Below are positions 325 through 54,342 of a stretch of DNA of 64,000 nucleotides, one piece after another. This DNA is from Halobacillus mangrovi (GTDB taxonomy: Bacteria; Bacillota; Bacilli; Bacillales; Halobacillaceae), in NCBI RefSeq assembly GCF_002097535.1, contig NZ_CP020772.1:248001-312000 (forward strand), given 5' to 3'. Below the pieces are notes generated by a model, which saw nothing but the letters and a program-made list of their open reading frames with translations, did not search any database and was not told where the DNA came from. Positions within the stretch are counted from its first letter, which is position 1; every line of letters begins with the position of its first letter. The position numbers and the translations under genes were made by a program.

Positions 325-2139
325 ATGAAAAAGGTTGGCTTTTTTCAGTCGGTCCGGCTGAAACTTATTGTTGTGTACATTTTACTCATGTTATTAGGCA
401 TCCAAGTCATTGGTGCCTATTTTGTTAAGAAATTAGAAGATCAGTTGACAACTAATTTTACGACTTCTATTGATGACCGTGTAGAATCGTTGACCTTTAG
501 TTTGCAGAATGCCTTTACAGCAGAAAGAGGGGAAGATTCCCCAACTCTGGAAGCAGAGGTGCAGAATCTGCTCGAAGAATTTAATAAGACGGATATTAGT
601 AAGCTTCAGGTTATTGACAGTTCACAGAGCATAATTGCTAATATAAGCGATCAGTCAGCCATCGGAAAAAAGGTAACAGAATCTAGAATTACAAAAGTGT
701 TCATTCTGGGGGAATCACAGCCTCAGCCCGTTACTTCCGATGGTGAACGCTTATATGTCGGCGCCAAACCGATTATAGATGAAGAAGGTAATATCGTAGG
801 TGTGCTAAATTATGAAGCGCAGATGGACGGTATATATAATCAAATGCAATCGATTAATCGGATTTTTGCTAATGGAACACTGCTTGCTATTGCCATAACA
901 GCTTTATTAGGTATTCTTGTTGCTCGAACGATAACGAAGCCGCTGACAGAAATGAAAAGACAGGCTCAAATTATGGCTACTGGTGACTTTTCACAAAAAG
1001 TCGATGTGAAAGGGAATGACGAGATCGGTCAGCTTGGGATCACCTTTAATGATTTGAACGATAAATTGAAATTAGCCCAGGCTACAACAGAAGGCGAGCG
1101 GCGGAAATTAAGTTCCGTTCTGTCGAATATGTCAGATGGTGTCATCGCTACAGACCGGCTTGGGGCGATCATATTAATGAATGAACCCGCAGCAAGGCTG
1201 ATTGGCCAGAATTTTGAGGATGTCCAGGGCCAATCACTCATCGACCTTTTTGATCTGAACGATCAAGTTGAAGAAATGAGTGAACTGGAGGAGACTGGCT
1301 CTCTGATCATTGATTTAAGCACCGAAGATAAGCACTTATTGTTAAAGGCCAATTTCTCTGTCGTTGAAGATGAAAACAATGAAATGAATGGGTTTATCAC
1401 TGTAATCAGTGATGTTACAGAGCAAGAAAAAGTTGAACAAGAGCGTCGAGAGTTCGTATCGAACGTATCGCATGAGCTTCGCACACCGCTAACGACGATG
1501 AGAAGCTATATCGAGGCGCTAAACGATGGGGCGTGGAGAGACGAAGATATCGCCCCCCGATTTTTAGATGTTACACAAAATGAAACTGATCGGATGATCC
1601 GTCTAGTGAATGATCTCCTACAGCTGACTAAGATGGATCACAAAGAGACCACCTTAATGAAAGAGCGGGTCGAATTTATCGGTTTCTTCAACCATATTAT
1701 TGATCGTTTTGAAATGAATAAAGATGAAAAGATGACCTTTGAACGTAATTTAGATACCCGCAACATGTATGTGTGGATGGATAAAGATAAAATTACGCAA
1801 GTGTTAGATAACGTCATTTCTAATGCCATCAAGTACTCCCCGGAAGGTGGGACCGTCCGCTTTGATGTTCACTCCACTAGGAAGCAGCTAGTGGTGAGTG
1901 TATCAGATGAGGGGATCGGGATGCCTCCTGATACCGTTGATAAGATCTTTGATCGCTTTTACCGCGTGGATAAATCAAGGGCCAGAGAAATGGGCGGAAC
2001 CGGACTTGGTCTCGCTATTGCCCGGGAAATGATTGAAGCCCATCACGGAAAAATCTGGGCAAGAAGTAAAGAGGGTAAAGGAACCACCGTTTACTTTACA
2101 CTACCGCTCATGAGTCAGAAGCGGAGGGGTCAATCGTGA
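325..2139 (+). CDS. walK: WalK sensor histidine kinase
   Basis: Membrane sensor kinase of the WalRK system that coordinates peptidoglycan turnover with growth. The 604 residues show TM1 at about 12-34, an extracellular Cache-like loop at about 35-180, TM2 at about 184-203, HAMP at about 204-256, PAS at about 262-370, and HisKA with the phospho-acceptor H383 in SHELRTP. The HATPase domain has an N-box near 496-503 (DNVISNAIKY), DEGIG at 528-532 and GGTGLGLAIA at 557-566. Length and architecture match Bacillus WalK. The last four bases overlap the walH start, so translation is probably coupled. Confidence 0.97.
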   Translation: MKKVGFFQSVRLKLIVVYILLMLLGIQVIGAYFVKKLEDQLTTNFTTSIDDRVESLTFSLQNAFTAERGEDSPTLEAEVQNLLEEFNKTDISKLQVIDSSQSIIANISDQSAIGKKVTESRITKVFILGESQPQPVTSDGERLYVGAKPIIDEEGNIVGVLNYEAQMDGIYNQMQSINRIFANGTLLAIAITALLGILVARTITKPLTEMKRQAQIMATGDFSQKVDVKGNDEIGQLGITFNDLNDKLKLAQATTEGERRKLSSVLSNMSDGVIATDRLGAIILMNEPAARLIGQNFEDVQGQSLIDLFDLNDQVEEMSELEETGSLIIDLSTEDKHLLLKANFSVVEDENNEMNGFITVISDVTEQEKVEQERREFVSNVSHELRTPLTTMRSYIEALNDGAWRDEDIAPRFLDVTQNETDRMIRLVNDLLQLTKMDHKETTLMKERVEFIGFFNHIIDRFEMNKDEKMTFERNLDTRNMYVWMDKDKITQVLDNVISNAIKYSPEGGTVRFDVHSTRKQLVVSVSDEGIGMPPDTVDKIFDRFYRVDKSRAREMGGTGLGLAIAREMIEAHHGKIWARSKEGKGTTVYFTLPLMSQKRRGQS

Positions 2140-3491
2140 ATATAGAAACTATGAAGTCCGTCATTTTAGTCATATTGATTGCCTTCAGTTTGTTATTAAC
2201 TGTCGCATTATGGAATTATCAGCCGAATTTCAACCAAGCAGATGAAAATAAAGACATTGGTCCAACGACGCTGGAAGAGGCGGGTGGAGAGCAAGTTGAA
2301 ATTCAGAACCTTGTCGAACCAGCTAAGGTTGTGTACCAAACTCAAGGGTCCTATTATTCTTATGCAGATCCTAACGATCGTTCCCAGCTTTACGAGCAAA
2401 TGAAACAATGGCGATTAGTAAATATCAATGATAACCCCTCACCTCCCGAACTTGAAGAAGGGGATAGAGCAGCGGAAATCATCTTTCCCTCTAAGTTGCC
2501 GCTTGAAGTGCTGAATCATATTTTCTCTATTAAAGAGGATTTACCCGAAGAAGACTCTGTCTTTGATCGTATATTTGTGGTTCATGAACATGACTCTGAG
2601 TCTGTATCTCCTTATATGGTTTACATCATGGATACGAATGAAGACGAGAATCCGACGAAAGTGAGTGCGTCGCTTACTGAAGAGGCAGCTACCCAGCTTT
2701 TTAATGAGGTAGACAATCATGAGATGGTCAGTCATTTTCGCTTGGATGATTGGAGTGGAGATACAGGAGATGCCACTCAGTATAATCATATTTACCTGCC
2801 GGCTGACAAAAATTCTTATCCTACAGAAGTATTGCAGACTAATAATGTTCCATTAACGCCCTTACAAAATTTTCTGTTTCCGGCCAGCTCAACAATTAGA
2901 CAATCATACTCGGACTCTGTGGATCGCAGATATGTAGAAACCTTTCGAGTGCTTGATGTTTATAACGATGAACGACTGATGAAGTATCAATATAAAATTA
3001 CGAACCAATCCCCATATTGGACCCAATATGAGTTGTTTAGTAAAAGTGTCAACGATATGAATAACCATTTTGGATGGACGAACCCATTCCGCCTTGAGAA
3101 CATCTTAGCTAATAAAGATAAAGTCAGTTACCGCATGTATTATAATGGGTTACCTATTTATGAAGAGGCAGGTTTATCGACAATATCATTGAAATATGAA
3201 GGCAGTTCGATCCAGGAGTATATCCGCCCGTTAGTCTCGTTCTTTCCTGTTCCCTATGAAAATGGTGAAGATTCCTCTGTGACTATAGAGTCTGGAGAAG
3301 AAGTCATTAGTAAAATCAAAGAAAGAGAGATCGCTTTAGAGGATATTGACGATATACAAGTCGGGTATAAGTTAACAGAACAAAGTATGCGACTAGCATA
3401 CAGCCTGCTGCCACAGTGGTATATCAAGATCGACGGGGAATGGATATCGTTATTCAGTGAAGAAATTACGCAAAATAAAGAAGTATCGTAA
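2136..3491 (+). CDS. walH: WalH (YycH), membrane-anchored regulator of WalK
   Basis: YycH family protein of 451 residues. It has one N-terminal membrane segment (about residues 7-25) followed by a large extracytoplasmic part. In Bacillus, YycH and YycI form a complex with WalK through their membrane segments and restrain its activity; that function is taken from the family. The start is a GTG overlapping the walK stop (GTGA at 2136-2139), preceded by GGAGGGG. The position between walK and walI is the conserved one. Confidence 0.93.
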   Translation: MNIETMKSVILVILIAFSLLLTVALWNYQPNFNQADENKDIGPTTLEEAGGEQVEIQNLVEPAKVVYQTQGSYYSYADPNDRSQLYEQMKQWRLVNINDNPSPPELEEGDRAAEIIFPSKLPLEVLNHIFSIKEDLPEEDSVFDRIFVVHEHDSESVSPYMVYIMDTNEDENPTKVSASLTEEAATQLFNEVDNHEMVSHFRLDDWSGDTGDATQYNHIYLPADKNSYPTEVLQTNNVPLTPLQNFLFPASSTIRQSYSDSVDRRYVETFRVLDVYNDERLMKYQYKITNQSPYWTQYELFSKSVNDMNNHFGWTNPFRLENILANKDKVSYRMYYNGLPIYEEAGLSTISLKYEGSSIQEYIRPLVSFFPVPYENGEDSSVTIESGEEVISKIKEREIALEDIDDIQVGYKLTEQSMRLAYSLLPQWYIKIDGEWISLFSEEITQNKEVS

Positions 3492-7822: not shown

Positions 7823-9157
7823 TTAAAGAGTCTGCTGCCATGTTGATTTTATCACTTTTGTTAATCCTAACAGGGCTAAGATGTTCGGGATGACCATCAA
7901 GGCATTGAATGTGTCTGCGATTTCCCATACAAAATCCACCTGTACAAGAGAACCTGTCACGATAAAGATAAGAACGACACTTCGATAAACTCCTACCGCC
8001 TGATCTCCAAACAAGAATTTGACGTTCACTTCCCCAAAATACGCCCAGCCTAAAATCGTTGTAAAGGCAAAGAACAATAAACAAATGGCAATGAACGGAA
8101 TGCCGAAGGATCCGAGACCGCGGGCGAAGCCTTCCTGAGTGATCGCACTTCCTTCAAGGCCGGATTGATGAGCATTGGTAAGCAGAACGACCATAGCGGT
8201 CAGTGTACAAATAATAACCGTATCGATGAATACTCCAACCATGGCGACGAGTCCTTGATGCGTCGGGTGTTTGACCTCAGCAACCGCATGAGCATGCGGG
8301 GTAGAACCCATGCCTGCTTCGTTCGAGAATAGACCACGCGCAATTCCGTAGCGGATCGCTTCTTTAATTGTAGCACCAAGCGCTCCTCCTGCCGCAGCTT
8401 CTGGGCTGATGGCGGCTTGTACGATCAATTGGAGCGTCGGAATGATCTGATCCGCGTAAGAGATAAGGATAATCAAGCTTCCTCCGATATATAGAAGCGC
8501 CATAAACGGCACCACGTTACCGGCAAAGTTTGAAATCCGGCTAATCCCTCCGAATAAGATCAATCCAACGAAAAAGGCGATGATTACGCCGATCACAAGG
8601 TTGATTGGCAGTGAATCGACTCCTATCGCCTGATTCATGGCTACTGTAATGGCGTTTGATTGGACCATGTTCCCGATAAAGCCTAAAGCAATGATGATGG
8701 CGATGGCGAAAAAGCCAGCTAACCACCGGCTGCCAAGACCGTCCCGGATATAATAAGCCGGTCCACCAACGAAATGGCTCCCCTTTTTCACACGATACTT
8801 CTGCGCCAGAATCGCTTCTGAGAAGATGGTCGCCATTCCGAAAAAGGAACTGATCCACATCCAAAAAATCGCGCCAGGACCTCCGGAAGCAATGGCCGTA
8901 GCCACACCAGCAAGGTTTCCAGTTCCGACTTGAGCAGAAATAGAAGTTGCCAGGGCTTTGAAGGAATTGATTCCCTCGGATTTTTCTTTTTTAAACAATG
9001 GGGCGAATGTGAGCTTGAACCCTTTCCCTAAATGGCGAACTTGGATGAACCTGAGCTGCAGCGTCAGCCACACCCCCGTACCAAGCAAGAACACAAGCAT
9101 AACGGGTCCCCATAAAAAACTATTTATATCTTGAAAAAATGCTGTGATTGTCTCCAC
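7823..9157 (-). CDS. alsT: Alanine/glycine:Na+ symporter (AGCS family)
   Basis: 444-residue polytopic membrane protein (about 10-11 helices) of the alanine or glycine:cation symporter family. Signature stretches are visible: GTGNLAGVATAIASGGPGAIFWMW, read in pieces as GTGNLAG and GGPGAIFWMW; SNEAGMGSTPHAHA in the middle; and the C-terminal WAYFGE. It imports alanine or a related small amino acid with Na+. It is monocistronic with its own terminator. Related Bacillus paralogues include AlsT, YrbD and GlnT-like carriers, so the exact substrate is uncertain. Confidence 0.9.
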   Translation of the reverse strand: METITAFFQDINSFLWGPVMLVFLLGTGVWLTLQLRFIQVRHLGKGFKLTFAPLFKKEKSEGINSFKALATSISAQVGTGNLAGVATAIASGGPGAIFWMWISSFFGMATIFSEAILAQKYRVKKGSHFVGGPAYYIRDGLGSRWLAGFFAIAIIIALGFIGNMVQSNAITVAMNQAIGVDSLPINLVIGVIIAFFVGLILFGGISRISNFAGNVVPFMALLYIGGSLIILISYADQIIPTLQLIVQAAISPEAAAGGALGATIKEAIRYGIARGLFSNEAGMGSTPHAHAVAEVKHPTHQGLVAMVGVFIDTVIICTLTAMVVLLTNAHQSGLEGSAITQEGFARGLGSFGIPFIAICLLFFAFTTILGWAYFGEVNVKFLFGDQAVGVYRSVVLIFIVTGSLVQVDFVWEIADTFNALMVIPNILALLGLTKVIKSTWQQTL

Positions 9158-12332: not shown

Positions 12333-12800
12333 ATGGATGTAAGGTTTGAAGCAAGGGAGACAAGGTTCAATTATCGATCGGCCGGAATTTTGATTGAAGA
12401 GGGCCACGTCCTTTTTCATAAACAGAAAGGTGACGCTTATTGGGCGCTTCCGGGTGGCGGAATTGAGATCGGGGAGAAGTCGGAGGACACCATCATTAGA
12501 GAAATGAAAGAAGAGTTGGGCTATGAAGTAGAGGTGATTCAGTCCTTATGGGTAGCAGAAAATTTCTTCACCTATCATCAGAACGATTTTCATGAGCTTG
12601 GATTCTATTATCTTTTACATACGAATGAAAGCCATTTACAAAGCGGACCCTTTTACGGCTTAGAAGGGGAGCGGCTGATTTATCAATGGCTTCCGATTGA
12701 AGCATTAGAAGATTATCACTTACAGCCGTCGTTCTTATCCAAACGGCTTCAAGATTTGCCTGATCAGATCGAACATGTCATTGTTGAAATGCATGAATAA
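12333..12800 (+). CDS. Nudix hydrolase
   Basis: 155-residue Nudix protein that hydrolyses a nucleoside diphosphate linked to another moiety. The Nudix box is complete at residues 42-64 (G-x5-E-x7-REM-K-EE-L-GY). GGAGG-type site (AAGGAGTATTT) upstream of ATG 12333. Substrate unknown: the family ranges from 8-oxo-dGTP to ADP-ribose, and nothing in the neighbourhood narrows it. Convergent with the STAY-GREEN homologue. Confidence 0.9.
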   Translation: MDVRFEARETRFNYRSAGILIEEGHVLFHKQKGDAYWALPGGGIEIGEKSEDTIIREMKEELGYEVEVIQSLWVAENFFTYHQNDFHELGFYYLLHTNESHLQSGPFYGLEGERLIYQWLPIEALEDYHLQPSFLSKRLQDLPDQIEHVIVEMHE

Positions 12801-12822
12801 ATGGAGAGAATGACATCGTTCT

Positions 12823-13296
12823 TTATTCTGAGAGAATTTCATTTAAATACTGCCGGGGTGTCCCGTAGTAAATGACCTGACGAAACTCCGCGTACACGGA
12901 TTGAAAGTACACAAAGATGGGCGCGTCAAGCAGGAACGGGTAAAAAGAGAAGAACATTCGGTCGCCATAAATCATTCCTTTTAATGCCGTTGTCATTTCT
13001 TTATTAAATATAGTAAACCGAACGTTTGCTTGTTCGTTGCTATATTCACCCCCATCTACATACGCTTGCCCTTTCAGATAGAAACGACGCCATGAATCCA
13101 CGAGCCATTCACCAAGGACTTCATCCCTCATTTTAGGATTAATCGCGTTTTTATTAAACATATAACCTACATCTAAAAATAATTCAGCTGTCATGTCAGA
13201 ATGGGTAAGCGTGTATTTTCTCCCTCTGAGGGGCTGGCTGGAATCAGCAGGAGGCAGGAAGGTCACAGATAACTTCCCAGGGTCAAAAGCAGCCAT
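12823..13296 (-). CDS. STAY-GREEN (SGR) family protein
   Basis: 157 residues that follow the staygreen pattern from end to end. They begin with FDPGKLSVTFLPP and continue with RKYTLTHSDMTAELFL, RDEVLGEW, a YGDR segment, and APIFVYFQSVYAEFRQVIYYG at the end. In plants SGR removes Mg2+ from chlorophyll a. Bacterial homologues in non-photosynthetic Firmicutes are known, and some have been reported to act on chlorophyll derivatives in vitro, but their native role is unclear. Start ATG 13296 is 7 bases from GGAGG; an upstream TTG at 13302 is too close to that site. No tetrapyrrole gene is adjacent. Confidence 0.85.
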   Translation of the reverse strand: MAAFDPGKLSVTFLPPADSSQPLRGRKYTLTHSDMTAELFLDVGYMFNKNAINPKMRDEVLGEWLVDSWRRFYLKGQAYVDGGEYSNEQANVRFTIFNKEMTTALKGMIYGDRMFFSFYPFLLDAPIFVYFQSVYAEFRQVIYYGTPRQYLNEILSE

Positions 13297-45773: not shown

Positions 45774-46382
45774 ATGAAATTCAACCCAGCTGAATTGGAA
45801 ACCCAGCAAATCTATAAACTGATGTCAGGTTCCGTCGTACCCCGCCCGATTGCCTGGGTGTCCACTCTTTCCGATGACGGCTTACTGAACCTCGCTCCGT
45901 TCAGTTTTTTCACCGTCGCTTCCCGGAAGCCGCCGATGCTGTGTATTTCCGTCGGACCAGGTGTAGGAGAGCGCGAAGGGACGGTCAAGGATACGTTAGC
46001 AAATATCCGGGCCAACGGGGAATTCGTCATCAATATTTCCACCACACCTTTAGGTAACCAGCTTCAAAAAACCGCCGAACACGTGCCTAGTGAAGTCGAT
46101 GAATTCGCAAAAGCCGGACTCACTCCGGAGCCCTCTGAGCTCGTTAAGCCGATGCGGGTCAAGGAGGCCCCGATCCAGATGGAATGCAAACTCCACCAGA
46201 TCGTGGAGCTCGGCAGCGATCATCTGGTCATAGGTGAATTGGTCATGTATCATATCGAGGAAAAATATTATCTCGAACCCTATAAAGTGAACTTGACAGC
46301 CCTGCGTCCGCTTGGTCGGCTGGCGAATCAGTTCAGTGAAATCAAAGATATCTTTTCACTGCCGAAAGATGATTTGAAATGA
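45774..46382 (+). CDS. Flavin reductase family (DIM6/NTAB-like) protein
   Basis: 202 residues with the FMN-binding split-barrel pattern: KLMSGSVVPRPIAWVSTLSDDG (in pieces SGSVVPRPIAWVST), LAPFSFFTVASRKPP, and NIRANGEFVINI. These proteins reduce FMN for a partner oxygenase or bind flavin themselves. No monooxygenase gene is near, so its job in this operon is unclear. Last gene before a good terminator. Confidence 0.85.
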   Translation: MKFNPAELETQQIYKLMSGSVVPRPIAWVSTLSDDGLLNLAPFSFFTVASRKPPMLCISVGPGVGEREGTVKDTLANIRANGEFVINISTTPLGNQLQKTAEHVPSEVDEFAKAGLTPEPSELVKPMRVKEAPIQMECKLHQIVELGSDHLVIGELVMYHIEEKYYLEPYKVNLTALRPLGRLANQFSEIKDIFSLPKDDLK

Positions 46383-46390
46383 TGTTGGTG

Positions 46391-46442
46391 AAAAAGTGCC
46401 TGGTTCCCCGGTGTTACTTACTGCGGTGGTCAGGCACTTTTT
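46391..46442 (+). terminator. Terminator of the catabolic operon
   Basis: Perfect 12-nt arms AAAAAGTGCCTG (46391-46402) and complement (46431-46442) with a 28-nt loop that can itself pair in part; the right arm ends in T5. Confidence 0.8.
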
Positions 46443-46898
46443 GTGGTTTACACGAATCCTTTCGTATATGCATTGGAATAACGGCGAATGTTCGAAAATG
46501 ATCTTGGGTGTTAGATGACCGTTAATAAATAACTCAACTTTCGTACCTATAAATCATTAATCTAACCATTTAGCTATAGTCGTCTTACTGATGATTACGG
46601 TCAGCTGTTTTTACCACCATTTAAAAAGAACTTTCCCAGGCTGTTCTGATCAATAATTTTTTTATTTGTGTTACGGCCGGAGGTATTATGGAACAAACTA
46701 AAAAGCCAGCATGCCTGAGGCTGGCTTAGACTTAAAGCAAGAAGAGAAGGATTCGTCTCCTATAAGCGAACCTTGTGGAAGAGGAATCAAATGACACTTT
46801 AACAAGAGAGCCTGCCTGTACCATGCAAACTAAAATAGCGTCCTGCAAAGCAGGAGTCGGAGGCGAGCAATCAAATTGCTATTACTTAAAAATAAAAT
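46443..46898. other. Gene-free region, possibly decayed
   Basis: About 455 bases without an intact gene. Contains a hairpin AAGCCAGC/GGCTGGCTT near 46702-46728. It also has a ribosome-site-like GGAGGTATTATG opening a 13-codon frame, and short frames such as DDYGQLFLPPFKKNFPRLF that could be remnants of a lost gene or insertion sequence. I cannot identify the source. Confidence 0.3.
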
Positions 46899-46924
46899 AA
46901 GAAGGTTTCCAAAGAAACCTTCTT
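46899..46924 (-). terminator. Terminator of the cmt-like PTS operon
   Basis: Perfect 11-bp stem AAGAAGGTTTC / GAAACCTTCTT around CAAA. On the minus strand it is followed by ATTTTATTTTT. Confidence 0.9.
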
Positions 46925-46958
46925 AAAAAATTACTATTTAAATGAATTTACGAACTAC

Positions 46959-48404
46959 TTATTTCTTTTTTAATCTGTCCATTAATTCTTCAAGTGCCGG
47001 ATCATTTAAATAGTTACTTATAGCGATAATTTCTTTATCAGGGTGCGCTCTTCTTGCTCTTTCCTGTAAATCTTCATGAACGACAATGATGTCTGAATGG
47101 TCGGGAGCATCTTCAATTCTGTAATGCTTAACTTCCATGCCCTCAATATCATTCTTTTTCAATTTCTTTCTGAAGGTGGTGGCACCTAGAGCACTGCTTC
47201 CCGCACCTGCATCGCACGCAAAAGAGATGGTATTAATTTCTTCATCTTTTTGTTTTTGACTTGTGGTAGAAGACTTTTTCCCTGCTTGTTTCATAGCTTT
47301 GGACTTTTCTACAGAAGCAGAAATGTCTTCATCTTCAGAACTTTTGTCCAGTTTCAAAATGAACGCTGTAACCAGGAACGTTACAACAGTAGCCACTAGT
47401 ACACCAGAGATGATCCCAATGAAGCTGCCTTTAGGGGTCAATCCAAGGTACGCGAAAATAGAGCCAGGACTTGGTCCGGCGACGAGTCCAGCGTCAAAGA
47501 GACTGAAAACTGCTATACCTGAAGCTCCCCCGGCAATCATTCCAATTATTGTAAGGGGTTTCATCAATACGTAAGGGAAATACAGTTCATGAATTCCACC
47601 AAAGAAGTGGATGATCATGGCACCTGGGGCGGTTCGTCTAGCCGTCTTTTTGCCGAAGAAAGTGAATGCCAGCAACAATCCAAGCCCAGGTCCAGGATTA
47701 GAAGCTACTGTAAAGTAAATGGACTTTCCTGTTTCAGCGGCAGCTTGCATTCCTAATGGATAATAGATGCCTTGATCGATGACGTTGTTTAAGAATAGTA
47801 CCTTAGCCGGCTCGTTGATGAGAGATAGCAAAGGCAATAAGCCAGTAGCGACCAACGCCTCAATAGCTGCGGTGACAAGGTTATTCGCTGATTCTATTGC
47901 AGGTCCTATAAAGTAGAACGATAGAATCATCAATAGGAATCCTAAAATTCCTAGCGAGAAATTGTTAACGATCATTTCAAATCCCGCAGGAATTCTGTTT
48001 TCAATAAGCTTGTCAAATTTCTTGATAATCAAGCCCCCTAAAGGACCGATCACCATTGCGCCTAAGAACATCGGAATATCTGATCCGACAATCAACCCAA
48101 TAGCGCCGATGGCACCCATGACAGCTCCTCTTTGTCCTCCAACCATTCGTCCACCTGTAATGGCTAAAAGTAGGGGAAGCAAGTATTTAATAGCTGGACC
48201 GACGATTTGGGCAAGTTCTTCATTGGGAATCCAACCACTAGGTATAAACAAAGCGGTCAATAGACCCCAGGCTATAAAAGCACCAATATTCGGCAGAACC
48301 ATGTTTGTTAAAAAACCACCAAATGCTTGGACTCTCGCGCGGGTAGAGGGGGTATTCATCTCTACAACATTTTCATTATCCGTTGCATGTGCTGAATCAG
48401 CCAT
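46959..48404 (-). CDS. cmtA: PTS transporter subunit IICB, CmtA/mannitol type
   Basis: 481 residues. The IIC domain (about 20-350) shows AFGGFLTNMVLPNIGAFIAWG in pieces, PAGFEMIVNNFSLG, the GIHE motif in HFFGGIHELYFPYVLMKP, and GPSPGSIFAYLGLTPKG. A Ser/Lys linker leads to IIB with the phospho-cysteine in FACDAGAGSSALGATTFRKK. Point-by-point recall places it closer to E. coli CmtA (GWLPNE, GPSPGSIFAYLALTPKG) than to MtlA. The E. coli CmtAB substrate is not firmly established. ATG 48404 has AAGGA 9 bases upstream; ATG 48413 is too close to it. Confidence 0.82.
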   Translation of the reverse strand: MADSAHATDNENVVEMNTPSTRARVQAFGGFLTNMVLPNIGAFIAWGLLTALFIPSGWIPNEELAQIVGPAIKYLLPLLLAITGGRMVGGQRGAVMGAIGAIGLIVGSDIPMFLGAMVIGPLGGLIIKKFDKLIENRIPAGFEMIVNNFSLGILGFLLMILSFYFIGPAIESANNLVTAAIEALVATGLLPLLSLINEPAKVLFLNNVIDQGIYYPLGMQAAAETGKSIYFTVASNPGPGLGLLLAFTFFGKKTARRTAPGAMIIHFFGGIHELYFPYVLMKPLTIIGMIAGGASGIAVFSLFDAGLVAGPSPGSIFAYLGLTPKGSFIGIISGVLVATVVTFLVTAFILKLDKSSEDEDISASVEKSKAMKQAGKKSSTTSQKQKDEEINTISFACDAGAGSSALGATTFRKKLKKNDIEGMEVKHYRIEDAPDHSDIIVVHEDLQERARRAHPDKEIIAISNYLNDPALEELMDRLKKK

Positions 48405-48498
48405 ATTTGTCATTCCTTTCTGATAATTCAGTAATTTAAAAAGCTACGATAAGAACTAAAGGAAAAGAAAAAGTATTGCCTTTCACGTCAATAGAGAT

Positions 48499-48936
48499 CT
48501 ATTCAACCATTTTTAACACGTCTAATACTTCCTGCTCACTTTGGGAAGCTTCAAGTTTGTCCTTAATCTCGTCTTCAATCAAAATAGAAGACAAATCAGA
48601 AATGAGATCAAGGTGTCCGGAGCTATCCTCAGCAGCTAAAACGAAAAAAGTACGGACTTCTTTGTTTTTGGGGAACTGTACAGGTTCCTCAAGCTTTAAA
48701 TAGGATACGCTTGTTTTTACGACGCTGTCCTCATTTTTCGCATGGGGCATCGCAATTCCTGGAACGATTACGATATAAGGGCCATTTTCATTTACATTTT
48801 CGATCATATCGTCAATATACTTTGGAGTGATCGACCCACTTTGTAATAGTGGTGCCGCAGCCTTTTGTATTCCATCTTCCCAAGAATCAACGGATGGTAA
48901 AAAACGAATATTTCCTTCTAAATAATCGGCTAACAT
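48499..48936 (-). CDS. cmtB: PTS subunit IIA, CmtB/UlaC type
   Basis: 145-residue EIIA type 2 protein. The phospho-histidine lies in GPYIVIVPGIAMPHAKNED, the GPY-x-IAPG-x-AMPH form seen in E. coli CmtB and the ascorbate IIA UlaC. It is not the GNFIAIPHGT form of MtlF. So the pair is CmtA+CmtB-like, not canonical mannitol. It passes phosphate from HPr to the IIB domain encoded 94 bases downstream. Confidence 0.82.
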   Translation of the reverse strand: MLADYLEGNIRFLPSVDSWEDGIQKAAAPLLQSGSITPKYIDDMIENVNENGPYIVIVPGIAMPHAKNEDSVVKTSVSYLKLEEPVQFPKNKEVRTFFVLAAEDSSGHLDLISDLSSILIEDEIKDKLEASQSEQEVLDVLKMVE

Positions 48937-48943
48937 ATGAACA

Positions 48944-50119
48944 TCACCTTTCGTTTATGGTCAATAATGAATCATTCTCTTTTAATCTACTATAGTGATC
49001 TTTAATCTTGCTTTGTAAGGTTGCATCCTCGATTTCAGTGAAATGGGCAATAGCTTGTTCGATTCCTTGTTCACGAATATAGGATTGGATCGTGACAGAT
49101 TCCTTATCATCAGGGTTATGAAAGAAGAATGCTGTGGCCACAGCAGCTGTGAGTCTCTCTACCGGTAAGCCCAGTTCGAAAAGGACTCTAGTTGGCTTGG
49201 TCAATCTCTCATCAAAGCCCAGCTTTCTAATTGGCGATCTCCCAACTCGTAATATATCATCACTTATATTAGCATTTTTAAAGCGTGCTATGGTCTTCTC
49301 AATAAATTCGCTCATTTCTTCGGACTCAAAATCATAATGGTGAGTAAAATAACGAGCGGATTCGTTCAGCGTTTCTCTTAAGAATTTTTCAATTTCCGGG
49401 TTCTCCAAGGCGCTCTGAATCGTGGAATAACCCTTTAGAAATGCTGTGTACGCTGTTGCTGCATGGCCCAGATTAACGATATACAACTTCCGTTCAATAT
49501 ATGGTTTTAACGAATCTACATAAGTGGCGTTTTCAATGGAAGGTAAATCTGAATTGAGCATTCCTTGCTTTTCGATCATCCATTCGTAATAAGGTTCGAC
49601 AAGGGTAACTTCACCTTCACTTCTCTTTTCGGATAGGGAAAGTCGATCGATCGCAGAATTTGGGAATCCAACCGTTGACTCGATCGTATCCATTTCATTT
49701 TCCGAGACGTTTCTACGAATCTCATCTTTCAATTTAGAAGAAGCATTAATCATATTCTCGTTTGCAATAACATCCACGTTGCCTTTATCTGACTGAATTC
49801 TTTTTAGCAGGCCTTTGGATATGACAGGGGCCACCTTCGATAAATTATCCGCTCCTACAGAGGTGGTGATGAGATCAGCTTCCACGATCGCCTCCACCAC
49901 TTTTTCCTGTGCACTGCTATGCAGGGCACATACAGGGGAGATGACTTCTACTGTTTGATTTTCATCTAATAGTTCCAAAGAGTAGTTGTTGCTGCGATTC
50001 ATACGGTTAACTGAATCTTCGTTTACATCAACAAAGCAGAGGTCGAATCCACTTTTATTCAACAAATATCCGATTAAACCTTTACCGATATTTCCTGCAC
50101 CGAAATGTAGCGCTTTCAT
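48944..50119 (-). CDS. mtlD: Mannitol-1-phosphate 5-dehydrogenase-like (MtlD family)
   Basis: 391-residue long-chain polyol dehydrogenase. NAD-binding HFGAGNIGKGLIG at residues 4-16, SVGADNL, IANENMINAS, GFPNSAIDR, and the catalytic K-x4-N-x3-H in RKLYIVNLGHA. It oxidises a hexitol-phosphate to a ketohexose-phosphate (mannitol-1-P to fructose-6-P in the type case). The CmtAB-type PTS beside it leaves the hexitol open. ATG 50119 with GGAGGG; the frame to 50143 passes through the ribosome site. Confidence 0.82.
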   Translation of the reverse strand: MKALHFGAGNIGKGLIGYLLNKSGFDLCFVDVNEDSVNRMNRSNNYSLELLDENQTVEVISPVCALHSSAQEKVVEAIVEADLITTSVGADNLSKVAPVISKGLLKRIQSDKGNVDVIANENMINASSKLKDEIRRNVSENEMDTIESTVGFPNSAIDRLSLSEKRSEGEVTLVEPYYEWMIEKQGMLNSDLPSIENATYVDSLKPYIERKLYIVNLGHAATAYTAFLKGYSTIQSALENPEIEKFLRETLNESARYFTHHYDFESEEMSEFIEKTIARFKNANISDDILRVGRSPIRKLGFDERLTKPTRVLFELGLPVERLTAAVATAFFFHNPDDKESVTIQSYIREQGIEQAIAHFTEIEDATLQSKIKDHYSRLKENDSLLTINER

Positions 50120-50164
50120 AATTAACCCTCCTTTGGAGCCCATAGGGCCCCTATTGTGAACAAG

Positions 50165-50725
50165 TTATTCTAAATTCGCGTGGTATTCCCAAAGGGACTC
50201 CAGCTCAATATTTTTATTGTTCACCATCATCAAAGCTAACGTGTCTCCCAATAAGAGTAGGCTTTGTTCAAATAAGCTTTTCATCGGCTGCTCAGAATGA
50301 ACTTCTCCAGGAGTATCTACTTTTGAACTTACAGGGATTCTAAGAAATAGATCGGAATACTGGCTCATGGAGCTGTCCGGATTTGCGCCAATGTGGGCAA
50401 CTCTCGCGTTATATTGTTTCGCTTTCTCTGCGATGATTAACGGGAATTTTGTTTCACCGCTTCCGGACCCTACAATGAGTAGATCCTTATCTGTAATGGC
50501 CGGTTCAGTGATTTCGCCAACAACGTACGTTTTAATGCCGATATGTGCCAACCTTTTGGCAATGGCCTGTAAGGATAAGAGAACCCTTCCGACACCTACA
50601 AAAAATACTTTTTCGGCATTGTTAATCTCAATTAATAATTTATCTACATCATCGCTGTTCACATTGGTTAAACTCGCTGTAATTTCATCGGTGATTTTTT
50701 TAGTTGCATAATTGTAGTCGTTCAT
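50165..50725 (-). CDS. SIS-domain sugar-phosphate isomerase, 6-phospho-3-hexuloisomerase (HxlB) like
   Basis: 186 residues, a single SIS domain: VFFVGVGRVLLSLQAIAKRLAHIG, then DLLIVGSGSGET (sugar-phosphate Ser/Thr loop), and the C-terminal HSEQPMKSLFEQSLLLLGD typical of HxlB. HxlB interconverts D-arabino-3-hexulose-6-P and fructose-6-P in the ribulose monophosphate pathway. No hexulose-phosphate synthase is present, so a different keto-sugar phosphate is likely. Translationally coupled to the epimerase (ATGA overlap). Confidence 0.8.
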   Translation of the reverse strand: MNDYNYATKKITDEITASLTNVNSDDVDKLLIEINNAEKVFFVGVGRVLLSLQAIAKRLAHIGIKTYVVGEITEPAITDKDLLIVGSGSGETKFPLIIAEKAKQYNARVAHIGANPDSSMSQYSDLFLRIPVSSKVDTPGEVHSEQPMKSLFEQSLLLLGDTLALMMVNNKNIELESLWEYHANLE

Positions 50726-51429
50726 ATAGTTTTAGCCTCCTCCTGTAATCCTTCACGAATCGATTCTTCGATGATCTTTTTGTTGTCCGCTAAGCTATTG
50801 TCCGATTTGAATAAACTTGTGCTTCCCGCGACTAAGATATCTGCACCAGCGCTTACCAACCCTGAAATGGTCTTCATGGAAACGCGTCCATCCACTTCGA
50901 TTTTGGTATCAAGTCCTTTGGATTTGATTAAGTTCGATAAATCTTCTACTTTTTTAGTCGCATAGGAGACTTGCTCTTCGTTTTTATCCGTTGCAAAGCC
51001 TGGATTGATCAGCATTAGTAAAACGGTGTCGACTTGCGGTAACACATATTCCAGAACAGATAGTGGAGTTGCCGGGTTAAGCGCAATGCCGACTTTCGTG
51101 TCGTGCTTTTTAATTAAATTAATATAGCGATCGATATGTGAACTGGTTTCAATATGGAAGGTGATTTGATCGACACCGATGTTGAGCATTTCCTGGATGA
51201 AAAACTCATTGTCATTGGACATAATGTGAACGTCAAATTTCATATCCGTTATTTTTCTTAATTGTTCAATGGTTGAGATACCGAGGGGCATGCTTGGGCT
51301 GAAACTTCCATCAATCACATCAATGTGTAAAGTATCCAGTCCTGCTTTTTCAATTTCTTTCACACTTTTTTCTAAATTGCAGAGATCCGCACACATGATG
51401 GATGGAGCTATCGTAATCTTGTTTTGCAT
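50722..51429 (-). CDS. Ribulose-phosphate / allulose-6-phosphate 3-epimerase family protein
   Basis: 235-residue TIM barrel with IAPSIMCADL at the N-terminus, metal and catalytic residues in HIDVIDGSFSPSMPLG, FDVHIMSND, LMLINPGFAT and IEVDGRVS. It departs from housekeeping Rpe where Rpe has HLMVE-P, GFGGQ-F and VDGGI. That suggests a hexulose-phosphate such as allulose-6-P (AlsE-like) rather than ribulose-5-P. First gene of the operon; GGAGG 9 bases before ATG 51429. Confidence 0.78.
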   Translation of the reverse strand: MQNKITIAPSIMCADLCNLEKSVKEIEKAGLDTLHIDVIDGSFSPSMPLGISTIEQLRKITDMKFDVHIMSNDNEFFIQEMLNIGVDQITFHIETSSHIDRYINLIKKHDTKVGIALNPATPLSVLEYVLPQVDTVLLMLINPGFATDKNEEQVSYATKKVEDLSNLIKSKGLDTKIEVDGRVSMKTISGLVSAGADILVAGSTSLFKSDNSLADNKKIIEESIREGLQEEAKTI

Positions 51430-51469
51430 GTTTCTGCCTCCTTGTTTTTGCTTTTGTGCCTTTTTTGTC

Positions 51470-51530
51470 ATGTTAATGCATGTTTTAGAAAATGTAAAGG
51501 GTTTCTTTGCGCTTTTTTGCATCTTTTTGC
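51470..51530. promoter_or_regulatory. Promoter of the cmt-like operon and phased GCAAA repeats
   Basis: Minus strand promoter: TTTACA (51498-51493), 17-bp spacer, TAACAT (51475-51470). Just upstream, three GCAAA-type repeats recur every 10 bases (TTTGC on the plus strand ending at 51510, 51520 and 51530). One more GCAAAAAC lies near 51447-51454. Helically phased repeats between divergent genes are expected for a DeoR-family regulator. A plus-strand TATAAT (51564-51569) serves deoR. Confidence 0.5.
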
Positions 51531-51599
51531 CCGTTTGGAATTTTTCCGATTGATAAAATGTGATATAATTTAGGAAATTCTAGGAGGAGTCATACGTTT

Positions 51600-52349
51600 A
51601 TGCTTAAACAAGAACGCCAACAAAGAATTGTCGATATTCTAAATGAGGAACACAAAGTAATTGCAAGCGACTTAAGCAAACGGTTATCCGTTTCAGAAGA
51701 TACGATCAGAAGAGACTTAAAAGAGTTGGATAACCAGGGTGTGATTAAAAGGGTACATAGTGGGGCACTCAGAAAAGGACCTCCCGTCGAGGACTTTTCA
51801 ACAAGGCAGGGGATCTATAATGAAACGAAGGTGAATTTAGCTACCAAGGCCTTAGATCTGATCAAAGACGAGATGGTCCTCTTAATTGATGGCGGAACCA
51901 CTAACTTACAATTGGTCCATCAGCTTCCTTTGTCCTTAAAGGGTACAGTCATTACAAATAGTCCACCGATTGCGATGGCACTCTCTAATCATAAAAATGT
52001 GGAAGTAATTATGATTGGGGGCACTTTATTTAAGCAGTCGATGGTTAACTTGGGGATTGATACCTTTGAATCGCTATCGACCATGAGGGCAGATTTATAT
52101 ATTATGGGGATTTATAAAATTGATCCTGAAATAGGAATAAGTGTGCCGAGTTTGTCTGAAGCCTTAGTGAAACGAAAAATGGCCTCTATTTCTACAGAAA
52201 TTGTTGGGATGGTCACGAGTGACAAGTTAGATACGATTTCTAACCATATTGTTTGTCCTACGGATCATCTGACGTATTTAATCACAGATCAAGTAAAACC
52301 AGAGATCAAGAGTTTGTATGAGAATCAAAAAATTATTGTGATGGATTAA
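51600..52349 (+). CDS. DeoR family transcriptional regulator
   Basis: 249 residues. DeoR helix-turn-helix at 1-57 (RQQRIVDILNE; VSEDTIRRDLKELDNQGVIKRVHSGA) and the DeoRC sensor domain (LIDGGTTNLQLVHQLP; VITNSPPIAMAL; GGTLFKQS). DeoRC senses sugar phosphates, here presumably an intermediate of the divergent PTS operon. Canonical Bacillus mannitol operons use MtlR instead, which again marks this operon as different. Confidence 0.9.
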   Translation: MLKQERQQRIVDILNEEHKVIASDLSKRLSVSEDTIRRDLKELDNQGVIKRVHSGALRKGPPVEDFSTRQGIYNETKVNLATKALDLIKDEMVLLIDGGTTNLQLVHQLPLSLKGTVITNSPPIAMALSNHKNVEVIMIGGTLFKQSMVNLGIDTFESLSTMRADLYIMGIYKIDPEIGISVPSLSEALVKRKMASISTEIVGMVTSDKLDTISNHIVCPTDHLTYLITDQVKPEIKSLYENQKIIVMD

Positions 52350-52386
52350 AATGAAATCAGAATTTCATGAGAGTAACGATAAGCAG

Positions 52387-52421
52387 CAGGTCACCTTTTA
52401 TACGAAGGGTGATCTGTTTTT
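52387..52421 (+). terminator. Terminator of the deoR-type gene
   Basis: CAGGTCACC (52387-52395) and GGTGATCTG (52408-52416) with one G-U pair and a 12-nt loop, then TTTTTCTTC. Confidence 0.8.
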
Positions 52422-52485
52422 CTTCTATATTGTGTTTGTAACTTGCTATAATTGGAACAAATCCAATTTAGAAAGGGAGAGGCAT

Positions 52486-53370
52486 ATGCCAAACAAAACG
52501 ATCGGTTTTATCGGCACGGGAGTTATGGGGAAAAGCATGGTACGTAACTTAATGAAGGCTGGATATGAGCTCAATGTGTTCACACGCACGAAGGAAAAAG
52601 CCAATGACCTGTTAGCCGAAGGAGCGAACTGGCAGGACAGTGTGGCTTCTTTAGCGGCGCACTCCGATATCATCATTACGATTGTCGGTTACCCAAGCGA
52701 TGTGGAAGAGGTGTACTTTGGAGCAGAAGGCATTTTAGAAAACGCGAAACCAGGTTCTTTTATCATTGATATGACGACCTCCTCTCCTGATTTGGCTCAG
52801 GAGATTGCAGAAAAAGCAAAAGCGGCTGATATTTATGCCTATGATGCTCCTGTATCCGGCGGTGATGTAGGCGCAAGGAACGGAAAGCTTACGATCATGG
52901 TCGGAGGCGATCAGGAACAGTTTGAAGAAATCCAGCCTGTCTTTCAGGCGATGGGAGAGAACATCGTCCTTCAAGGCGAAGCGGGAGCCGGTCAGCATAC
53001 GAAGATGAGCAACCAGATCGCAATCGCTTCTGGTATGATGGGGGTTTGTGAGGCGATTACATATGCCGAGAAGGCAGGTCTCGATCCGAAGAAAGTCCTG
53101 AGCAGCATTGAATTTGGTGCAGCCGGAAGCTGGTCGCTTTCTAATCTTGGACCACGGATGATCGACGGAAACTTTGATCCTGGTTTTTACGTGAAGCATT
53201 TTATTAAAGATATGAAGATTGCGATTGATTCAGCGGAGAAAATGCAGATTCCTGTACCTGGGCTGAAGCTAGCGAAGCAGTTGTATGAGGAGCTGAGTGA
53301 AGCGGGCGGAGACAATGATGGTACGCAGTCGTTATATAAGTACTATCAGATGATGACGCCGGTTTCTTAA
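52486..53370 (+). CDS. ykwC: NAD(P)-dependent beta-hydroxyacid dehydrogenase, YkwC-like
   Basis: 294 residues of the 3-hydroxyisobutyrate dehydrogenase family: GFIGTGVMGKSMVRNLMKAG (in pieces GFIGTGVMG, RNLMKAG), ITIVGYPSDVEEVYFG, DAPVSGGDVGA, the catalytic lysine in GQHTKMSNQIA, and KHFIKDMKIA. It matches B. subtilis YkwC closely as I recall it. The substrate is a short beta-hydroxyacid, not defined. ATG 52486 with AAAGGGAGAGG; the open frame back to 52351 runs through the preceding terminator. Confidence 0.88.
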   Translation: MPNKTIGFIGTGVMGKSMVRNLMKAGYELNVFTRTKEKANDLLAEGANWQDSVASLAAHSDIIITIVGYPSDVEEVYFGAEGILENAKPGSFIIDMTTSSPDLAQEIAEKAKAADIYAYDAPVSGGDVGARNGKLTIMVGGDQEQFEEIQPVFQAMGENIVLQGEAGAGQHTKMSNQIAIASGMMGVCEAITYAEKAGLDPKKVLSSIEFGAAGSWSLSNLGPRMIDGNFDPGFYVKHFIKDMKIAIDSAEKMQIPVPGLKLAKQLYEELSEAGGDNDGTQSLYKYYQMMTPVS

Positions 53371-53703
53371 TTTTCTGCTGACAGACTAGAAAAGGTGAGT
53401 TTAGAAATCAATAGGCGTGGTGGATGGAGCAGTGGCTACTTTTGTTGTAGTACTGCTCTATTTTTGTTGAGATTTGTTCAATTTTATTGTTGATATTACG
53501 GAAGATTTAAATCCAAGATCATTTATAAGTTCATTTCTTTATTTGCTTCTTCTGTAGATAACCATTCGCCTGAGGGTTATGCCAACCGTTATATGGTGCG
53601 CTCCAATTCGGCGATAAAGGAATCTCCCCTTAATTTTGAGAGAATAAAAAAAACTATTTTATCAATAATAAAGGAAATACTTTTATCGGAAGGGGCGGTT
53701 GTG
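53371..53703. other. Gene-free region after ykwC
   Basis: 333 bases. Holds a terminator (53427-53468) and a small ATAACC/GGGTTAT hairpin near 53557-53582. Otherwise AT-rich leader DNA of the next gene. Confidence 0.5.
53427..53468 (+). terminator. Terminator of the ykwC-like gene
   Basis: GAGCAGT (53427-53433) and ACTGCTC (53452-53458) with inner GCTAC/GTAG pairing, followed by TATTTTTGTTG. Confidence 0.8.
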
Positions 53704-54342
53704 ATGAAGAAGTTATTGGTAATAGGGCTAACTTTATTATTTTCGCTAAATATCTTTGCTGGAATAAACAGTGCTGAAGCTACAACTCATCAAAACATTA
53801 GTCAAGCAGAGGTGAAATTCGAAAATGATTTTAGGAGGCTCTGGATTGATCATGTTTTGTGGACAAGTAATTATATTACAAGTGCAACTACTGTAGGAGC
53901 TGAGGATCAAAAACAGGTATTAGAGAGGTTGCTTAAAAATCAGGAGGATATCGGCAATGCTATAAAGCCAGTCTATGGAGAAGCCGCTGGTAACAAACTT
54001 ACTGAATTACTTAAGGAGCATATTGTGATTGCTGGAGAGATTGTAGAGGCTGCTAAAAGCGGAGATGAAGCCAAGGTAAATCAGCTCAACAAAGAATGGT
54101 ATAGAAATGCCGATGATATAGCAGCTTTTCTAAGCGGGGCCAACCCTCATTTAAAAAATGAAGACCTAAAAAATCTCTTATATATGCATCTTGAATTAGT
54201 TACAGATGACTTAGTAGCCAGTTTAGAGAAAGATTGGGAAGCAAGAATAGCTGCGATTGATGAAGGGATCACCCACATTATCGTAATGGCAGACGCTATC
54301 TCCCAGGGAGTTGTGAAGCAGTTTCCGGATAAATTTAAATAA
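53704..54342 (+). CDS. Secreted helical protein of unknown function
   Basis: 212 residues. Signal peptide 1-26 (SAEA-TT), then an all-helical domain with conserved-looking RLWIDHVLWTSNYITSA, RLLKNQEDIGNAIKPVYGEAAGNKLTELLKEHI, NKEWYRNADDIAAFLSGANP and KDWEARIAAIDEGITHI. Similar domains occur in Bacillus and Paenibacillus proteins, sometimes mislabelled as enzymes. The two-helix H/E/D-rich pattern recalls bundles that hold metal or lipid, but no function is known. Start ATG 53704; the frame upstream lacks a signal. Confidence 0.75.
   Translation: MKKLLVIGLTLLFSLNIFAGINSAEATTHQNISQAEVKFENDFRRLWIDHVLWTSNYITSATTVGAEDQKQVLERLLKNQEDIGNAIKPVYGEAAGNKLTELLKEHIVIAGEIVEAAKSGDEAKVNQLNKEWYRNADDIAAFLSGANPHLKNEDLKNLLYMHLELVTDDLVASLEKDWEARIAAIDEGITHIIVMADAISQGVVKQFPDKFK

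Follow-up and report, generated by a model that had tools for sequence, protein, structure and literature searches.

Gene content and control signals

This analysis concerns a polyol operon of Halobacillus mangrovi, whose genome consists of a single contig of 4.14 Mb (NZ_CP020772.1). The window, i.e. the whole stretch of DNA that was analysed, is the part of this contig between positions 248,001 and 312,000 (64,000 nt). Positions 46899-52349 of the window are occupied by a five-gene operon on the minus strand, encoding an epimerase of the Rpe/AlsE superfamily, an HxlB-like isomerase, an MtlD-like dehydrogenase and the IIA and IICB proteins of a phosphotransferase system (PTS), and by a divergent gene for a DeoR-family regulator (Table 1). 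All six genes lie where the original prediction, made from the sequence without database searches, had placed them. That prediction held that the operon only superficially resembles one for mannitol and could encode an undescribed polyol pathway. We find that it is a real, conserved and uncharacterised variant of PTS-dependent polyol catabolism, which probably degrades another sugar alcohol by a route so far unelucidated.

Table 1. Features of the operon and its control region (positions in the window)
Feature	Position	Strand	Basis
Epimerase, Rpe/AlsE superfamily, separate clade (PF00834), 235 aa	50722-51429	-	open reading frame list, alignment, tree
HxlB-like SIS isomerase (TIGR03127), separate clade, no HxlA adjoining	50165-50725	-	profile search, tree
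MtlD-like polyol-phosphate dehydrogenase, fixed active-site changes	48944-50143	-	profile search, alignment
PTS IIA, CmtB-like, PGIAMPH motif at residues 59-65	48499-48936	-	profile search, comparison
PTS IICB, CmtA-type, GGIHE from residue 272, cysteine at residue 400	46959-48413	-	comparison
DeoR-family regulator, divergent from the operon	51600-52349	+	profile search
Control region between the divergent genes, alignment of 24 loci	51430-51599		alignment
Ribosome-binding site AAGGAGG	51437-51443	-	alignment
Promoter-like TTTACA-17-TAACAT for the operon	51470-51498	-	consensus match, alignment of 24 loci
Terminator-like hairpin after IICB, 12 pairs, T tail	46898-46925	-	hairpin search

The list of open reading frames starts the epimerase gene at 51522. 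We moved the start to 51429, since the alignment of the loci has an ATG there and, 7 nt upstream of it, AAGGAGG. An overlap of 4 nt joins the epimerase gene to the isomerase gene, and the dehydrogenase is likely to start at an internal second ATG at 50119. Promoter-like matches are not enriched in the control region (11 observed against a shuffle mean of 15.3), and the site listed in Table 1 is credited because the alignment of the 24 loci backs it, not because of match counts. Judged by eye, the same alignment contains repeats of the type ACNNGCAAAAA, which are candidate DeoR operators. The terminator-like hairpin coincides with the operon boundary of 46899 in the original prediction. A search of positions 46000-54000 against Rfam gave no match.

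The transport proteins and the dehydrogenase

The transport genes are of the CmtAB type, as had been proposed. The IICB shares 64% identity with E. coli CmtA, against 50% with MtlA, and the separate IIA is CmtB-like, with 35% identity to E. coli CmtB. The best profile of the IIA is PRK09854, presumably the CmtB model, at 88.8 bits, below its cut-off of 192; the MtlA IICBA model scores 45.4. PGIAMPH is the phospho-histidine motif of the IIA, and the IICB carries GGIHE and the IIB cysteine, at residue 400. The IICB also passes the NCBIfam models for mannitol IICBA (609, cut-off 589) and IIC (479, cut-off 468). The divergent DeoR-family gene likewise bears out the claim of a regulator other than MtlR. 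As for the further suggestion, that the operon could disclose the substrate of CmtAB-type systems, the sequence does not reveal it.

The dehydrogenase passes one model for mannitol-1-phosphate 5-dehydrogenase (400.8, cut-off 356). It has the catalytic residues of MtlD and lacks the mannitol-type residues I152, V153 and T206, which are numbered here after the Staphylococcus aureus enzyme as given in PMC6623548. These three are replaced in all 30 operon copies, whereas they are kept in 20, 21 and 20, respectively, of the 21 mannitol-type copies. Position 206 is M, L or A in 30/30 operon copies and T in 20/21 mannitol-type copies; position 153 is S or A in the former and V in all 21 of the latter. 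The catalytic and phosphate-binding residues K200, N205, N119, H208, R287 and R294 are present in all 30 operon copies and R283 in 28. Eighteen of the 21 mannitol-type sequences are second copies from genomes that carry the operon and are assumed to serve mannitol use. All 21 cluster together (SH-aLRT, the Shimodaira-Hasegawa-like approximate likelihood ratio test, 91; no bootstrap) in a tree of 52 chosen sequences, from which a truncated locus (L030) was excluded, although it was retained in the residue counts. Ahead of these counts we set apart the divergent MtlD relatives of loci L128 and L129, which keep K200, N205, H208, R287 and R294 and are without E118, R199 and R283.

At about 3.30 Mb the genome encodes another MtlD, 40-42% identical to that of the operon, alongside an MtlA-type IICB and a IIA. 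Plain mannitol use is thus already covered by a complete mannitol-type operon, and of the other genomes carrying the operon under study, 17 out of 18 likewise gave more than one MtlD-family match. Mannitol alone is therefore an unlikely substrate. The second operon, the CmtA-type IICB and the changed dehydrogenase residues sustain the view that the likeness to a mannitol operon is superficial.

The epimerase and the isomerase

The epimerase scores below the cut-offs for both Rpe (TIGR01163, 204.2 against 212.6) and AlsE (PRK09722, 178.7 against 271), and passes PRK05581.1-4, a less strict subfamily model (192.8 against 165). In a tree of a chosen subset of 41 sequences, all 18 chosen operon epimerases form one clade (support 100/100), outside canonical Rpe and the AlsE clade (100/99) and, weakly, on the AlsE side (87/76). 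The residues H35, D37, H68 and D180, which we take to be metal ligands, are invariant in 42 epimerase sequences, and so are R182, within DGR, and most residues of an FSPSMP signature; Rpe carries DGG and VPN in their place. The last loop is one residue longer than that of Rpe, as it is in AlsE (GSTSLF/GTSGLF against GSAIF). The predicted structure has a mean pLDDT (predicted local distance difference test) of 86. The original prediction was thus right that the enzyme stands apart from Rpe and that its active-site loops depart from those of Rpe.

The isomerase passes the HxlB model (182.2 against 160 bits). In a tree of 44 chosen sequences, the 15 operon copies included, out of the 32 loci described below, form a single clade (100/99), separate from the sampled HxlB proteins that are linked to HxlA. 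The nearest branches are a Paraburkholderia HxlB and an HxlA-linked HxlB of Weissella; they are long and their placement is unsure. No HxlA was found at any of the 13 operon loci tested, whereas HxlA adjoins 16 of 17 other HxlB genes in genomes of the same family. Six residues present in 20-21 of 21 HxlA-linked enzymes (S48, G49, M57, T74, T113 and G149) are replaced in 15/15 operon copies, and R47, H182 and N184 are kept. For example, the GRSG motif of the HxlA-linked enzymes has become GRVL in 13 and GRVM in 2 of the 15. In all three enzymes of the operon, catalytic residues are retained and positions fixed in known relatives are changed. Elsewhere in the genome, the host has a separate Rpe (2.44 Mb) and an HxlB adjoining HxlA (2.91 Mb).

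The isomerase matched 363 plasmid records, of which we examined nine, plus one E. coli record (KE47). Four of the nine have HxlA, four have an rpe-like gene without HxlA and one has neither; the HxlB of KE47 is HxlA-linked. On plasmids of Pantoea, Klebsiella, Enterococcus faecium and L. paracasei (L070, L091, L071 and L074), Rpe-like genes and HxlB genes of other groups lie beside a galactitol-type PTS without HxlA, and the L. paracasei cluster additionally has a KpsF/GutQ-like isomerase. The enzyme pairing may have further uses there.

Conservation and distribution

We collected 32 loci, all found via the epimerase: 19 named loci, one Enterococcus raffinosus plasmid and 12 others. Among the loci found in this way, the closest come from Halobacillus species. 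The epimerase and isomerase genes adjoin in 32/32 loci, a recurrence beyond chance, and the full set of epimerase, isomerase, MtlD-like protein, IIA and IICB is present in 28. Four loci are exceptions. A Pasteurellaceae locus (L028) has no IIA that we could find. In L128 and L129 the IICBA is fused and of the MtlA type, the MtlD relative is far more divergent and a short-chain dehydrogenase/reductase (SDR) is present, the layout of L129 being matched to that of L128 by tblastn and gene size only. The SDR of L128 passes the PRK06171 subfamily model, named sorbitol-6-phosphate dehydrogenase subunit, and a HAD-family protein is also present. Finally, L130 has a PTS of the mannose class; the gene run that holds it contains no dehydrogenase, and adjacent runs encode a Gfo/Idh/MocA oxidoreductase and an SDR. 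Since the epimerase-isomerase pair stays constant while the transport and dehydrogenase modules swap (CmtAB with MtlD; IICBA with SDR and MtlD relative; mannose-class PTS), the pair looks like the core of the system.

A looser arrangement occurs in Paraburkholderia graminis (L063), where a 47%-identical epimerase gene lies 6.6 kb from an HxlB gene on the opposite strand, in a cluster with an ABC transporter, a zinc-type dehydrogenase, an FGGY kinase and a DeoR gene. As its two genes are not adjacent, this locus is not among the 32; loci with a short HxlB are also uncounted.

Carriers of the operon were found among the Bacilli, in a second class of their phylum and in one genome of the Pasteurellaceae, and the distribution is patchy. 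At E 1e-60 the epimerase matched 5 of 398 sampled genomes of the class and, in the order of G047, 5 of 335, starting genomes included. A search of the class of G1098 gave no match in 22 genomes. A search of 369 Gammaproteobacteria with the Paraburkholderia epimerase matched the starting genome only. Five matches at phylum level (G1038, G1075, G1098, G1116 and G1189) were rejected as Rpe-like, their best match being E. coli Rpe at 45-50% identity. Two of the 574 plasmid records matched by the epimerase were examined, and 7 of the 35 matched by the IICB.

Several genes near these operons deserve mention. In H. mangrovi, the gene directly after DeoR (52351-53370, plus strand) encodes a protein like 2-hydroxy-3-oxopropionate reductase/3-hydroxyisobutyrate dehydrogenase; it was not found in 19 related loci at E 1e-8 and therefore probably lies outside the system. 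A further terminator-like hairpin is located at 52385-52418. In E. raffinosus, an annotated NAD(P)-dependent oxidoreductase follows the IICB. In L130, the region 601-3412 near the mannose-class PTS core encodes an SDR (48% identical to a Pantoea SDR), a YjbQ-family protein, a triosephosphate-isomerase-like protein and a class II ketose-bisphosphate aldolase.

A possible C4 epimerisation by two enzymes

To relate the gene set to a substrate, we enumerated alditol phosphates of four to six carbons (those with six carbons having D configuration at C5), oxidised beside the free end, at C2. The isomerase was assumed to be as stereospecific as HxlB, which interconverts fructose 6-phosphate and D-arabino-3-hexulose 6-phosphate, and the epimerase to act either on a 2-ketose, at C3, or on a 3-ketose, at C4. 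Under these rules mannitol, glucitol and the D-pentitols require neither enzyme and allulose 6-phosphate requires the epimerase alone, while sorbose 6-phosphate and L-xylulose 5-phosphate call for the isomerase together with epimerase action of both kinds. A joint need for the two enzymes arises only with inversion of a 3-ketose at C4 by the epimerase. This would apply to the conversion of tagatose 6-phosphate, from D-altritol 1-phosphate (the same compound as D-talitol 6-phosphate) or galactitol phosphate, to fructose 6-phosphate, and to that of L-ribulose 5-phosphate, from L-arabitol 5-phosphate or ribitol 1-phosphate, to xylulose 5-phosphate.

These results bear on the chemistry that the original prediction had put forward, in which an allulose- or 3-hexulose-type product is epimerised at C3 and isomerised. 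A dehydrogenase product other than fructose 6-phosphate still seems right, and the epimerase would suit the allulose type. The scheme as such was rejected: given oxidation at C2 and HxlB-like stereospecificity, no enumerated ketose phosphate needs both an isomerase and a C3-epimerase, although an isomerase of looser specificity would alter this outcome.

The following pathway could account for the gene set. The CmtAB-type PTS, judged by homology, would import and phosphorylate the polyol. The MtlD-like enzyme would oxidise the carbon beside the unphosphorylated end to give a 2-ketose phosphate; because its active-site residues are changed and its catalytic and phosphate residues are kept, we infer that this product is not fructose 6-phosphate. 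The isomerase would then shift the ketone from C2 to C3, and the epimerase would invert C4, which is now beside the ketone and placed to the phosphate like C3 of ribulose 5-phosphate. This equal distance makes the action of an Rpe-type enzyme on C4 of a 3-hexulose 6-phosphate plausible. The isomerase would finally return the ketone to C2, for a net C4 epimerisation, from tagatose 6-phosphate to fructose 6-phosphate in the case of a hexitol. All catalytic steps and the substrate are inferred here. D-Altritol (i.e. D-talitol) is the first candidate substrate, as its sole difference from mannitol lies at C4, exactly the position whose configuration the pair would set right, and galactitol is the next. 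The match of the L128 SDR to a sorbitol-6-phosphate dehydrogenase subfamily is consistent with a hexitol.

Our preferred reading, held tentatively and with well below even confidence, is that the operon is dedicated to the catabolism of a polyol other than mannitol, by this C4 mechanism acting on a hexitol. The more particular idea of a two-enzyme, ketone-walking C4 epimerase, for tagatose 6-phosphate or L-ribulose 5-phosphate, that serves a CmtAB-type PTS for D-altritol, galactitol or L-arabitol/ribitol is doubtful, though it has a real chance of being correct.

Contrary evidence and alternative readings

Several points weigh against this C4 epimerisation. The necessity of the pair is an argument under the rules of the enumeration, and a permissive isomerase would alter it. 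Residues invariant in the HxlA-linked enzymes are lost, with S48 changed to V in 15/15 copies, and for this reason the isomerase may lack the HxlB reaction altogether. The 29 operon dehydrogenases in the tree require two label changes, so a single origin for them is not established. The last loop of the epimerase resembles that of AlsE, and there is a further set of observations on transketolase genes.

A full-length transketolase gene (tkt) lies in the operon or within 3 kb of it in 6/32 loci (L013, L025, L026, L107, L113 and L115), and a transaldolase gene of the talC/fsa type is present in four of these (L025, L026, L107 and L113). In two more loci, N-terminal fragments of tkt beside DeoR (L022, 6894-7067; L084, 9892-10291) are perhaps remnants of a former tkt. 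On a rough estimate, taking two tkt genes, a 14-kb target and a genome of 4 Mb, such a neighbourhood would occur by chance in about 1 genome in 150. In five genomes (G441, G450, G451, G994 and G1248), which have one or two tkt genes elsewhere, the one near the operon is an additional full-length copy. The gene order is epimerase-hxlB-talC-tkt in L113 and also in L107, which has an extra epimerase gene. E. coli cmtBA adjoins tktA, a CmtA-type IICB (53%) on a Klebsiella plasmid clusters with tkt, and the kinase of the Paraburkholderia cluster passes a xylulokinase model (493 against 380). As a six-carbon route to fructose 6-phosphate needs neither transketolase nor transaldolase, the tkt and talC neighbours favour pentose phosphates and hence a pentitol; the pathway may thus end in a product other than fructose 6-phosphate, the one named in the original prediction.

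In a pentitol pathway, the PTS would import a pentitol, the MtlD-like enzyme would form a pentulose 5-phosphate, the epimerase would act on pentulose phosphates, and transketolase and transaldolase would complete the non-oxidative pentose phosphate pathway. The SIS protein would be a pentose-phosphate isomerase or, with the epimerase, would turn L-ribulose 5-phosphate into xylulose 5-phosphate. However, 26/32 loci have no full-length tkt in the stretch examined, although some of these stretches end at contig ends. By the enumeration, D-pentitol products require only housekeeping enzymes, and the L-ribulose 5-phosphate variant would invert a carbon one bond closer to the phosphate than Rpe does. 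Moreover, the phosphate-binding residues of the dehydrogenase match those of the C6 enzyme, and mannose-class PTS genes follow the epimerase-isomerase pair in L130. We regard a pentitol as a serious possibility, albeit an unlikely one.

Two loci among those with transketolase show features of their own. In L107, near-identical epimerase copies (694/705 bases; 8182-8886 and 12417-13121) flank hxlB-talC-tkt, a segment that could have arisen by duplication. The Klebsiella cluster, on plasmid pKP91 of Klebsiella variicola (L116, 6022-12063), encodes a CmtA-type IICB, a zinc-type dehydrogenase, a GntR protein, a IIA and a transketolase, and looks like another uncharacterised polyol cluster.

An AlsE-like route, which comes close to the original prediction, would start from allitol or altritol phosphate and give allulose 6-phosphate, which the epimerase would invert at C3 to fructose 6-phosphate, with the isomerase as an auxiliary. 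The longer last loop shared with AlsE could be a weak pointer to hexuloses, and the epimerase clade falls, weakly, on the AlsE side. This route is rather improbable, given that the AlsE model scores far under its cut-off and that the isomerase, present in 32/32 loci, would be left without a task; nor is there an HxlB in the als operon of E. coli. Conversely, a permissive isomerase could perform the step alone, leaving the epimerase without a task.

Existing annotations would make the operon a second system for mannitol (or sorbitol), in which two of the enzymes are passengers. The mannitol models passed by the IICB and the dehydrogenase agree with this, and the genes of Streptococcus uberis are called mannitol-specific in the genome paper (PMC2657157). 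The supposed passengers, however, are the most constant part of the loci, the active-site changes are fixed across the operon dehydrogenases, and a separate mannitol-type operon is present in the same genome. We therefore rejected plain mannitol use as the main role and consider a second mannitol system quite improbable. A part in formaldehyde assimilation or detoxification by the ribulose monophosphate route, whose cycle includes tkt and rpe genes and to whose HxlB family the isomerase belongs, was rejected as hardly credible, because the 13 operon loci tested lack HxlA, the host has a separate HxlA-HxlB pair, the isomerase falls in its own clade and polyol transport is encoded in the same operon.

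Relation to known systems

The operon shares with mannitol PTS operons (E. coli mtlADR and the mtl-type operon of the host) an MtlA-family IICB, a IIA and an MtlD-family enzyme with the same catalytic residues, but differs in the CmtA-type IICB, the DeoR regulator, the two further sugar-phosphate enzymes and the altered dehydrogenase active site. E. coli cmtBA has similar transport proteins; in place of mtlD, hxlB and the epimerase gene, its cluster has yggP (zinc dehydrogenase), yggF (fructose bisphosphatase), fumE and yggC. The D-allose pathway also employs a PF00834 epimerase in hexose catabolism, with a similar last loop; the epimerase here is only 33% identical to AlsE and in its own clade, and the als operon is without HxlB. 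The isomerase family is shared with the HxlA/HxlB system, but the operon has no HxlA and six invariant or near-invariant isomerase positions are replaced. In Agrobacterium, D-altritol and galactitol are reportedly degraded through tagatose 6-phosphate to fructose 6-phosphate by C4 epimerisation (Wichelecki, 2015), with ABC transport, a PF00294 kinase and a one-enzyme PF08013 epimerase; a PTS and a possible two-enzyme epimerisation set the present operon apart.

The 2009 genome paper of S. uberis (PMC2657157) presents a mannitol PTS operon, SUB0285-0289, whose five genes carry the same annotations, a likeness that refers to the annotated functions. To this extent the gene set had been annotated before, so that the word undescribed in the original prediction is too strong, but no functional study of it was found in the open-licence literature searched, of which the two broadest result sets were covered for 20 listed papers each. 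The annotations in S. uberis and E. raffinosus combine mannitol, ribulose-phosphate epimerase and formaldehyde-pathway names, which jointly give no coherent pathway. If the proposed mechanism is true, the ketone walk would be a new solution to the conversion of tagatose 6-phosphate (or L-ribulose 5-phosphate) and would assign a substrate to this group of CmtAB-type systems. The pair would then represent a new catalytic logic in rare-sugar metabolism, and a possible tool for producing tagatose or other rare sugars.

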